Below are positions 18,380-21,231 of a DNA stretch of 29,269 bases, in pieces. The notes under the pieces were generated by a model. It did not search any database and was not told the DNA's origin. It saw nothing but the letters and a program-made list of their open reading frames with translations. The translations under genes were made by a program, and so were the position numbers. Positions within the stretch are counted from its first letter, which is position 1, and every line of letters begins with the position of its first letter. This stretch comes from a virus, in IMG/VR virus record IMGVR_UViG_3300035698_015258, positions 1 to 29,269 of that record; one strand, 5' to 3'.

Positions 18380-18514
18380 ATGGCATATCCAGTTGCAGCG
18401 GGAGTAACTACCCATAGTGGCAGCTATACTCCAGAAATTTGGAGCGGAAAATGTTTAGTAAAGTTCTATAAAAGCACTGTGTTTGGCGCAATCGCTAACA
18501 CAGATTATGAGGGT
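18380..18514 (+). CDS. Major capsid protein, exon 1 (codons 1-45)
   Basis: MAYPVAAGVTTHSGSYTPEI is the start of a recognisable coat-protein family (MAYPVxAGVTxxSGxxxPEIWSGKLLVKFYxxTVxxxIxNTDYEG); I see the same phrases here up to NTDYEG. ATG 18380 follows AAAGGAG. The frame then meets AAG TAA, which is out of place for this family, whose members continue GEIKSxGDxVxIRT. That continuation is found 975 bases later (exon 2), and the bases between have all marks of a group I intron. Exon 1 is 135 bases, a whole number of codons, and its last base is T, as group I 5' splice sites require. Confidence 0.88.
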
Positions 18515-18562
18515 AAGTAACATTGCTCTCACTAAACACAGTGAATTGCTGGGACACCCTGC

Positions 18563-19210
18563 CTACTGTAACGAAGTGGGCAGAAAGGACATTACATAAT
18601 CGTGAGTAATTCGTTTGACATACGGTATGCGGACAAGAGGGATATCATGTGCCTTCAGCCAATTTTTTTTCAATATATCTGTAATAATGACTGGAGTACA
18701 TCCAGCACGTTTGACAAGGTTATTGAAATAATGATTGGTCTCTTTATGCTGGAGCCCATCGCATTCTATAACAAGAGGGATGCTTGGTATGAAAATATCA
18801 ACCCTAAGATTGGCATTGGTTCTTGGATTAATAAGGCCATGAAAAGGGTGCTCAGAGATAACAGGTTTAGGAAACAGGTGTTTTGTGACAATAGCCGTAA
18901 TAGAAGTTTGGAACTTACTGCGCGGGATCGGGACGTTAGCGTCATCCAGAACTTTGGAGTATTTAACTCCATATTTCCTAAAAGTTTTGGAAGATACACC
19001 AGCGAGTTTGCACATACCTTGAAGTGTGATAGGGTCATTTCTGTTATATGCGGCTATAACAACATCGTATGCAATAGCATAAAGTTCTTCAAATGTTCTA
19101 CCTCTTTGAGCAAGGGTTTTGCAAGATTTGCTGCAAAATTTAAAATGATGTTTTTTAGATACTTTATACCCGATGTCAATTTTTTCACCGCAATATTCAC
19201 AATTATTCAT
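18563..19210 (-). CDS. Homing endonuclease (Vsr/EDxHD-like), antisense inside the intron
   Basis: 215 residues on the strand opposite the capsid gene. N-terminal four-cysteine zinc knuckle (C4, C7, C26, C30: NCEYCG...FCSKSCK), a helix-turn-helix-type middle (ITLQGMCKLAGVSSKTFRKY, 61-80), and a C-terminal PD-(D/E)XK/Vsr-related fold: NLRVDIFIPSIPLVIECDGL at 134-153 with D138, E149, D151 and H155 (EC-D-GLQH), then VIITDILKKNW and LVRIPY. This matches the EDxHD homing endonucleases such as I-Bth0305I. It probably cuts an intronless capsid gene so that the intron is copied in. Start at 19210 behind AAAGGATATTACT, with its own promoter at 19234-19263. Its last codons overlap the P5-type ribozyme hairpin. 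Confidence 0.85.
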   Translation of the reverse strand: MNNCEYCGEKIDIGYKVSKKHHFKFCSKSCKTLAQRGRTFEELYAIAYDVVIAAYNRNDPITLQGMCKLAGVSSKTFRKYGVKYSKVLDDANVPIPRSKFQTSITAIVTKHLFPKPVISEHPFHGLINPRTNANLRVDIFIPSIPLVIECDGLQHKETNHYFNNLVKRAGCTPVIITDILKKNWLKAHDIPLVRIPYVKRITHDYVMSFLPTSLQ

Positions 19211-19233
19211 AGTAATATCCTTTCTGAGAGCCT

Positions 19234-19263
19234 ATTATACCACAACGTAGTTCGTAAGAGCAA
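19234..19263 (-). promoter_or_regulatory. Extended -10 promoter for the antisense endonuclease
   Basis: Minus strand: TGGTATAAT (extended -10, hexamer at 19234-19239), 18-base spacer, -35 TTGCTC (19258-19263, first three bases match). Predicted RNA start near 19227, about 17 bases before the start codon at 19210, with the ribosome site AAAGGA in between. Confidence 0.65.
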
Positions 19264-19489
19264 GCGTGATGGTTTGAAAAATAATAGGATAAGATGGGCA
19301 ATCAGCAGCCAAGCGGCCTGCAAACAGGTCGAAGGTTCAGAGACTAGGAGGATTACCCTAAGTCAAAAGATATGGGGAAACTCCCACGAGCGCTGTGCGG
19401 CTTTAGTTTTATAAAGTTGAAGATATAGTCCGGTCTGCATGGAAACATGCAGGGGCCTCAGATAAAGAACTGAGGACGTAAACAAAACG

Positions 19490-20275
19490 GAACTCAAAAG
19501 TAAGGGAGATACGGTCCAAATCCGTACCATCCCGGACATCACGATCAATGACTATGTGATTGATCAGAACTTGACCTACGAACGCCCGACGCCGGGTGTG
19601 GTGGATCTTCTCATTGATAAAGGCAAGTATTACGCCATGAGCATCAATGATATTGAGAAACTTCAGTCTGACCTACCGTATGTCGATAAGTGGACCACCG
19701 ATGCTGGCCAACAGCTTGCAATCGCTATTGATTACGACATCCTTTCCAACGTCTATTCCAGCGCTAACGCTTCCAACCAGGGCGCAACGGCTGGTGCAGA
19801 CAGCGGCGATATCGACCTCGGAGCAACAGGTGCTCCGGAAGCTGTAGACAAGACCAACATCCTGGATTACATCGTGGACATGGGAACGGTTCTTGATGAA
19901 CAGAGCGTGCCCGACAATGCCAGGTGGGTTGTGTTTCCCCCCATCTTTTGCGGCATGATCAAAATGTCCGACCTTAAAGACGCGAGTCTTGCCGGGGACG
20001 GAACCAGTATTCTCCGTAATGGTCGTATTGGAATGATTGATACGTTCGAGATTTATAAATCTCGTCAGATTGCCACAACCACAGATGGCGTTGATACGGT
20101 TCATAACATCATCGCAGGCCATCCTTCCGCAATTACCTTTGCGAGCCAGATGACCAAAACTGAAACCCTGAAAAACCCGAATGACTTCGGGGACCTTATG
20201 AGAGGTCTTCAGGTGTATGGTTACGAAGTAATCAAGTCAGAAGCCTTGGTTTGGTTTTACGCCAAGAAAGCATAA
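19490..20275 (+). CDS. Major capsid protein, exon 2 (codons 46-306 plus stop)
   Basis: Begins GAA CTC AAA AGT (ELKSKGDTVQIRTIPDITIN) directly after the intron's last G and continues the coat-protein family sequence to the stop at 20275: YERPTPGVVDLLIDKGKYYA, VDKWTTDAGQQLAIAIDYDI, LDYIVDMGTVLDEQSVPDNA, ending GLQVYGYEVIKSEALVWFYA. Joined to exon 1 it gives 306 residues, a usual size for this HK97-fold-type phage coat family. The only in-frame start inside exon 2 near its beginning is GTG 19556, with no ribosome site and cutting off conserved residues, so splicing is needed for a full protein. It assembles the capsid shell with the scaffold upstream. Confidence 0.92.
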   Translation, partial: ELKSKGDTVQIRTIPDITINDYVIDQNLTYERPTPGVVDLLIDKGKYYAMSINDIEKLQSDLPYVDKWTTDAGQQLAIAIDYDILSNVYSSANASNQGATAGADSGDIDLGATGAPEAVDKTNILDYIVDMGTVLDEQSVPDNARWVVFPPIFCGMIKMSDLKDASLAGDGTSILRNGRIGMIDTFEIYKSRQIATTTDGVDTVHNIIAGHPSAITFASQMTKTETLKNPNDFGDLMRGLQVYGYEVIKSEALVWFYAKKA

Positions 20276-20288
20276 GGGGGACTGAGAT

Positions 20289-20732
20289 ATGGGAACCTAT
20301 GATTATGCGATAGGAGGAACCACTCCAAAGTGGGATGATGTCGGTACGTTGATTAAGCTCCAAAGAATCATGAACGTGCCTAAAATCATTGCCTCGAATG
20401 CCACACTTACTACCGCTGCAAAGATTGCGTCAGGCGATATCATTCAGGCCATTAACGTACCGGCGGGGTTTGTTGTCCTGCATGTTGGGTACGATGTTTC
20501 TACCGTGTCTACTGCCGGTACGACATGCAGCATTGGCCTTGGAGCTGGAACCGAGGTTGTTGCCGCTCTGGATCTTGCGACTGAAGCGTACAGTGTCATT
20601 GCGAATACCGCTGACTGGGGGTGGGATTATACCAGCCAGTTGTTTTCCGCAGATGACACCATTGATGTTGCTTACCTTGCTGATGAAACTATTGGCGAGT
20701 TCACACTGACGGTGACAGGCTATCAACTGTAA
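20289..20732 (+). CDS. Virion protein paralogue 1 (likely decoration/head protein)
   Basis: 147 residues, beginning MGTYDYAIGGTTPKWDDVGT. About two thirds identical by eye, and equal in length, to the next gene. Both are beta-rich, with IIQAINVPAGFV, GWDxTSxLF and a C-terminal EFTLTVTGYQL / QFTLTVVGYQL. Directly after the major capsid gene, where decoration or head-stabilising proteins are often encoded. ATG 20289 follows AAGGGGGACTGAGAT. A tandem duplication followed by divergence is clear; the function is inferred from place. Confidence 0.72.
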   Translation: MGTYDYAIGGTTPKWDDVGTLIKLQRIMNVPKIIASNATLTTAAKIASGDIIQAINVPAGFVVLHVGYDVSTVSTAGTTCSIGLGAGTEVVAALDLATEAYSVIANTADWGWDYTSQLFSADDTIDVAYLADETIGEFTLTVTGYQL

Positions 20733-20787: not shown

Positions 20788-21231
20788 ATGGGAACCTATG
20801 ATTATGCAATAGGCAACACTTCCCCGAAATGGGACGATGTTGGGAGGCTGATTAAGCTCCAGAGAATCATGAACGCACCGGCCATCATTGCGTCGAGTGC
20901 AACTCTCGTTACTGCGGCTAAGATTACTGCGGCTGACATTATCCAGGCGATAAACGTACCTGCCGGGTTTGTGCTCCTACATGCTGGGATGTATGTCTCC
21001 ACAGCGGCTACTGCTGGTAATACCGCAGACATTGGTCTTAATGGAGGGCAGGAGATTGATGCTGCGTTCGACATTGTGACGACCGGGTACACTGTCATCG
21101 AGAAAGACGCAACCTGGGGGTGGGATAATACCTCAAAACTGTTTACGGCGGCTGACACCATTGATGTCCAGTATATTGCCGATGAAGTTATTGGACAATT
21201 CACTCTTACGGTGGTCGGTTATCAACTGTAA
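20788..21231 (+). CDS. Virion protein paralogue 2 (likely decoration/head protein)
   Basis: 147 residues, beginning MGTYDYAIGNTSPKWDDVGR, aligned without gaps to the gene just upstream. The first 30 residues, the INVPAGFV core and the last 12 are most alike; the region 68-100 differs most (MYVSTAATAGNTADIGLNGG here), which might be an exposed face. Ribosome site CAGGAGGGATAAAAT. Two versions could form a mixed layer or let the particle vary its surface; both are inference. Confidence 0.72.
   Translation: MGTYDYAIGNTSPKWDDVGRLIKLQRIMNAPAIIASSATLVTAAKITAADIIQAINVPAGFVLLHAGMYVSTAATAGNTADIGLNGGQEIDAAFDIVTTGYTVIEKDATWGWDNTSKLFTAADTIDVQYIADEVIGQFTLTVVGYQL

Follow-up and report, generated by a model that had tools for sequence, protein, structure and literature searches.

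How can a homing endonuclease gene (HEG) that runs against its host gene be expressed from inside a ribozyme without breaking that ribozyme? The question is raised by a stretch of virus DNA of 29,269 nt (the window; IMG/VR virus record IMGVR_UViG_3300035698_015258, positions 1 to 29,269) whose major capsid gene is interrupted by an intron with a gene on its antisense strand. From sequence comparisons, we consider it quite probable that this is a mobile group I intron that carries an antisense and probably self-expressed HEG of the EDxHD family in a hairpin of P5, and that the cassette is spread by homing. The capsid gene, the intron, and the HEG are arranged as follows (all coordinates are those of the window):

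18380-18514, plus strand: exon 1 of the major capsid protein gene, 45 codons (joined with exon 2, it matches the contiguous intronless relatives L003 and L008)
18515-19489, plus strand: group I intron, 975 nt (Rfam RF00028; ends from the intronless L003 and the HEG-less L002)
19490-20275, plus strand: exon 2 of the major capsid protein gene (phrog_267, E = 1.8e-44; relatives)
18563-19210, minus strand: HEG, 215 amino acids, with a zinc finger, a TetR-like HTH (residues 37-94), and an EDxHD/Vsr nuclease (residues 97-215)

The ends of the intron were set by comparing 80 capsid loci. L003, which is intronless, has exons that are 96% and 90% identical to the window's, and the window's exons rejoin in frame at TATGAGGGT|GAACTC, which matches L003. 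Furthermore, L002 (exons 98% and 95% identical) contains a 318-nt intron that lacks the HEG but starts and stops at the same places. The window's intron matches RF00028 on its 3' half (E = 1.5e-11, 54.9 bits; the cut-off is 50), and the HEG-less introns of L002 and of L261, a capsid locus of another phage, score 65.2 and 84.5 bits. The hallmarks of group I are present: a conserved core, a U.G pair at the 5' splice site in P1, a terminal G, and exact in-frame joining, with the 5' exon ending in U and the intron ending in G. Judged by these features, the phage's major capsid gene is interrupted at 18515-19489 by a group I intron. The first-pass annotation had given the intron as 18515-19230; its start was right, and the comparison with L003 and L002 moves the 3' end to 19489. 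That annotation also overlooked the hairpin into which the gene is inserted, the overlap of P5a with the -10 box, and the complementarity of the Shine-Dalgarno sequence to the gene's 3' end, which are described below. Because the intron reaches 19489 and not 19230, the putative promoter and ribosome-binding site of the HEG lie within it. (The 5' part of the Rfam alignment, at 19131-19218, passes through HEG DNA and is wrong; the true 5' strands of P1, P3, and P4 are at 18509-18552.)

Relatives of this capsid gene (L004, L005, L013-L016, L020, and L074) have introns at two other positions, near codons 27 and 18, that carry sense LAGLIDADG-like genes. At the site of the window's intron, sense HNH-type genes are found in L024 and L076. 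Directly after the window's capsid gene are two tandem paralogous genes of 147 amino acids each (20289-20732 and 20788-21231, with ~73% DNA identity).

The HEG itself is a 215-codon minus-strand frame at 18563-19210, exactly where an antisense ORF had been reported, with the intron on the plus strand. Its product had been described as a Vsr/EDxHD-like nuclease with a zinc knuckle, and both parts of this description are borne out. The knuckle is an N-terminal C4/C7/C26/C30 finger that matches Pfam's zf-FCS at 22.5 bits, which is borderline (the cut-off is 22.4). The nuclease assignment draws on PHROG matches, an invariant motif, and the fold predicted by AlphaFold2. The PHROG matches are homing endonucleases (phrog_559, E = 3.6e-11; phrog_9084, E = 5e-9), and relatives are found in Moonbeam (in two TerL introns), in ME3, in staphylococcal and other phages, and at 66 IMG/VR loci; the ME3 relative is annotated as homologous to the homing nuclease of 0305phi8-36. 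D138, E149, G152, H155, and D178 are invariant across an alignment of 52 sequences, and the E, D, H, D catalytic signature of EDxHD enzymes is present. The AlphaFold2 model (pLDDT of 83 for the whole chain and 93-97 in most of the catalytic core) contains the PD-(D/E)XK/Vsr core on which the first-pass annotation had staked its claim: it aligns with the catalytic domain of I-Bth0305I (3R3P; VIA Z = 9.4, 93 of 97 residues, rmsd 3.6), with Vsr (1CW0; VIA Z = 9.5), and with 3HRL (Z = 10.0). Residues 37-94 resemble TetR-type HTH domains (Z of ~7; the HTH is a common arrangement). Because PDB sequence searches with the HEG product (phmmer and profile) do not report 3R3P, membership in the family rests on the motif, the fold, and the annotated relatives. 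As judged from these, the product is an EDxHD/Vsr-type homing endonuclease of the I-Bth0305I kind. A single-protein query found no close relatives in IMG/VR or GTDB genomes, and an alignment query found distant ones only; the best homologue is ~37% identical over half the length.

The HEG lacks TTA, CTA, and TCA except for one TTA at its end. The sense strand has an open frame of 270 codons (18602-19414, plus strand) that is in register with the HEG's codons and ends inside the ribozyme core. We rejected this frame as a second protein: it has no PHROG match, and the chance of such an open frame is ~0.01 given the codon usage.

The HEG lies within an insert in the 5' strand of P5, and the features of the ribozyme are:

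18509-18530, plus strand: P1, exon GAGGGU (18509-18514) with the IGS GCUCUC (18525-18530) and U.G at the splice site (sequence reading)
18547-18559, plus strand: 5' strands of P4 (UGCUGG, 18547-18552) and P5 (CCC, 18557-18559), with partners at 19302-19307 and 19296-19298 (invariant in 16 introns)
18560-19223: HEG-bearing insert in the 5' strand of P5, ~664 nt, between CCC and TGAGAGCC
18561-18581, plus strand: small hairpin in the leftmost part of the insert, overlapping the last HEG codons and the stop codon (also in L261; pairing probability ~1)
19231-19238, plus strand: 5' strand of P5a, CCUAUUAU, overlapping the -10 box (covariation)
19281-19288, plus strand: 3' strand of P5a, AUAAUAGG (covariation)
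19294-19452, plus strand: the remaining ribozyme core, with the 3' strands of P5 and P4, P6, P7, P8, and P9 (Rfam alignment)

In about 16 related introns with a canonical P5, CCC passes straight into approximately T(G/T)AGAGCC, followed by P5a and two inner helices. L002, L024, and about 15 further introns have a canonical P5 that lacks the insert. P5a has compensatory changes in 8 of its 8 pairs, with 94.5% of cells paired, and for the whole P4-P5 structure 95.1% of cells are paired, versus 75.8% for shuffled controls and no more than 40% when the structure is slid. The P5 domain of the L261 intron matches the window's at 66 of 71 bases and has both of the added hairpins, with a short loop where the window has the HEG, and for this reason we place the HEG at the tip of the hairpin CAGAAAGGA.../...TCCTTTCTG. 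A HEG looped out in this way would have its ends paired with each other and would leave the ribozyme core free to close. L261 was the only further intron with an added hairpin that we found; three genome matches were not introns. Four "P5 inserts" that were found by pattern (L091, L153, L188, and L210) turned out to be pairs of separate introns or to have no HEG in P5.

Two side observations concern these introns. Ten bases of exon 1 (18475-18484) are perfectly complementary to the 5' strand of P3 (18534-18543), which is probably due to chance because L002 has two mismatches there. Also, the contig of L261 has a second group I intron match downstream (L261:9746-10023), beside its capsid gene.

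The first-pass annotation had credited the HEG with an extended -10 promoter and a ribosome site, and sequences that match both are present. TGGTATAAT is on the minus strand, with its hexamer at 19239-19234, and the Shine-Dalgarno sequence AGAAAGGA is 7 nt before the ATG:

19234-19239, minus strand: -10 box TATAAT, with the extended TG at 19242-19241 (motif match)
19258-19263, minus strand: weak -35-like TTGCTC, 3 of 6 bases, with a spacing of 18
19218-19225, minus strand: Shine-Dalgarno sequence of the HEG, AGAAAGGA (sequence reading)

Exact TGNTATAAT occurs three times in the whole 29-kb window, counting both strands, and its chance is 0.0024 per 60 nt of the same composition. The -10 box is formed by the strand of P5a, a covarying ribozyme helix. 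TG with at least 5 of the 6 bases of TATAAT is seen only in the window and in L261; 16 other introns have at most 4 of 6. In minus-strand orientation, the window has TGGTATAAT-AGGCTCTC-AGAAAGGA-TATTACT-ATG and L261 has TGGTACAAT-AGGCTCTC-AGAAAGGA-AACT-ATG; L261 also has the same stop codon. These motifs support the view that the HEG has its own promoter-like and ribosome-binding signals within the intron. (There is another minus-strand copy of TGGTATAAT at 20634, inside the first of the two tandem genes, 20289-20732.) Similarity between the homing site and the promoter, which might allow autorepression as in I-TevI, was no better than in shuffles, and no I-TevI-style autorepressor operator was found in the window's intron.

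The two ends of the insert form an inverted repeat that matches at 14 of 15 positions, which 0 of 2,000 shuffles reach:

18581-18595: left arm, which encodes C-terminal residues of the HEG on the minus strand and is complementary to the Shine-Dalgarno region
19212-19226: right arm, which contains the Shine-Dalgarno sequence of the HEG (conserved in L261)

In the HEG's mRNA, the Shine-Dalgarno arm (19226-19212) would pair with the last codons (18595-18581) at 15 of 15 positions, with one G.U. The computed probability that the Shine-Dalgarno sequence is unpaired is 0.4-0.8 as long as the transcript ends before the 3' arm and 0.01 in the full-length mRNA. Thus, the model predicts a site that is open while the mRNA is still growing and that closes after the 3' end has been made. 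This folding comes from energy models only, for a helix that spans 616 nt, and translating ribosomes could keep it open. The translation of I-TevI, from the td intron of T4, is held by RNA structure, which we count as a likeness to what is predicted for the window's HEG.

A rival account is that the hairpin and the inverted repeat serve the intron RNA only, by closing the HEG loop so that P5 can fold, with the Shine-Dalgarno pairing as a by-product. We give this account a substantial chance without preferring it. The sense RNA is predicted to pair in the same way, and L261 retains the closed hairpin with no HEG. However, the one mismatch is a C.A in the intron RNA, where the helix has 14 of 15 pairs, but a G.U in the HEG's mRNA, and the canonical P5 domain of other introns does without such a hairpin. 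The fuller scheme, in which P5a doubles as the HEG's promoter, the stem holds the HEG loop shut in the intron RNA and also acts as a self-timed off switch in the HEG's mRNA (Shine-Dalgarno against 3' end), and the P5 domain and HEG move as a module between the introns of unrelated capsid genes, is tentative, and we doubt that all of it is right.

The last part of that scheme bears on where the gene came from. On the 5' side of the insert, the window's intron is identical to that of L002 (45 of 45 bases), and the two are 82% identical 3' of P5 and 62% identical in P5. Relative to L261, the identity is 93% in P5 and 61% 3' of P5. By these identities the intron is a mosaic, with an L261-like P5 and the rest L002-like, which suggests that the P5 module carrying the HEG was probably exchanged between introns of different capsid genes.

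L261 might represent the state before invasion, with the HEG having inserted into a pre-existing hairpin whose arms offered a Shine-Dalgarno sequence on either strand. Both arms do read AGAAAGGA inward, the HEG's body is flanked by a CATA repeat, and L261 has a short loop only in the HEG's place. Against this, L261 has kept the stop codon along with Shine-Dalgarno-AACT-ATG and the near-consensus TGGTACAAT, and gene loss explains this more simply. The retention of these elements favors loss of the gene over a pre-insertion state; both are possible, and we think it somewhat against the odds that L261 is ancestral.

L261 looks like the scar of a lost HEG, with the Shine-Dalgarno sequence, ATG, and stop retained and the body gone, and the window's HEG could be a dead passenger that came with the swapped P5 module and is neither expressed nor active. 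HEGs usually decay after fixation. This is unlikely here, as the window's gene has an intact frame of 215 amino acids, every catalytic residue, a confident fold, and a consensus -10 box and Shine-Dalgarno sequence.

Still less probable is that the antisense transcript is a regulator that anneals to the intron's 5' half, blocks its splicing early in infection, and so delays capsid synthesis: a transcript from ~19227 would be complementary to the 5' strands of P1, P3, P4, and P5, and we found no convincing minus-strand terminator between the HEG and exon 1, but the conserved nuclease coding is reason enough for transcription, and antisense RNA is not needed because L002 and L007 have introns at this site that lack the HEG. 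Antisense RNA might control capsid output, and it might affect splicing as a secondary matter.

We return to a mobile intron with a probably self-expressed HEG. The HEG would occupy the loop of a hairpin that has been added to the P5 domain, and a sigma-70-type polymerase would read it from the P5a promoter, independent of the capsid transcript. Ribosomes would load on the nascent mRNA, and once the last codons had been made, the 3' end would pair with the Shine-Dalgarno sequence and close it, which would limit the output of the enzyme. The enzyme's target would be a capsid allele that lacks the intron, or an intron that lacks the HEG, and the cassette would be copied during repair of the cut; the HEG product appears to be what spreads the intron. 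This would be a compact answer to the problem of expressing an antisense gene inside a ribozyme without breaking it, with the HEG's control signals made from helices that the RNA needs anyway and that are under covariation constraint. The intronless L003, the HEG-less L002, and the hairpin-only L261 are comparators that make gain or loss of the gene, and exchange of the module, directly testable.

An antisense HEG whose start signals are built from the folding helices of its intron appears to be rare, but not unprecedented. It had been claimed that phage intron endonuclease genes mostly lie on the sense strand, which is roughly true in phages, but not absolute, as LittleE and the rDNA introns of myxomycetes show. 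In a survey of the inserts in P5, P6, and P7-P8 of 117 intron cores, about 14 carry sense-strand ORFs; this is a rough count, made from the longest ORF and by eye, because the longest-ORF rule would mislabel the window itself. Among the 56 loci that have EDxHD relatives, an Rfam intron is present at 3, each time on the same strand as the gene. The intron endonuclease genes of T4 are all sense (PMC2988022), and antisense HEGs are established in the nuclear rDNA introns of myxomycetes (PMC9548176).

The closest arrangement is in the mycobacteriophage LittleE, whose capsid intron has a bottom-strand endonuclease gene (gp14) and was shown to splice by RT-PCR and N-terminal sequencing (PMC3706429). 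Both phages have an intron in the major capsid gene (LittleE's is probably group I) with an antisense HEG. LittleE's HEG is a LAGLIDADG enzyme (annotated as HNH) near the 3' end of its intron, while the window's is an EDxHD enzyme inside P5; its putative promoter lies in a ribozyme helix, and an inverted repeat marks the two ends of the insert. LittleE has a -10-like box, GATAAT, just upstream of the annotated start of its antisense HEG (L347:1606-1611, minus strand), so an internal promoter may be common in antisense phage HEGs.

In the Didymium introns Dsq.L2066 and Dir.S956-2 (PMC9548176), an antisense HEG also lies in a group I intron and is expressed from a separate promoter; they differ in their nuclear rDNA setting, His-Cys enzymes, P9.2 location (Dsq.L2066), spliceosomal introns, and polyadenylation. 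The td intron of T4, with I-TevI (PMC2988022), similarly has a HEG inside a group I ribozyme, with an internal promoter of its own that is independent of the host gene (a putative one in the window), but that HEG is on the sense strand, in the loop of P6, and of the GIY-YIG family. I-Bth0305I (3R3P) shares with the window's enzyme the fold of the catalytic domain, the acidic/His signature, a phage origin, and separate DNA-binding modules; the window's enzyme differs in its N-terminal FCS-type finger and HTH, its antisense location, and the lack of a sequence-profile match. In summary, an antisense HEG in a phage capsid intron was already known, and what is new here is the EDxHD family, the location in P5, and the dual-use helices.
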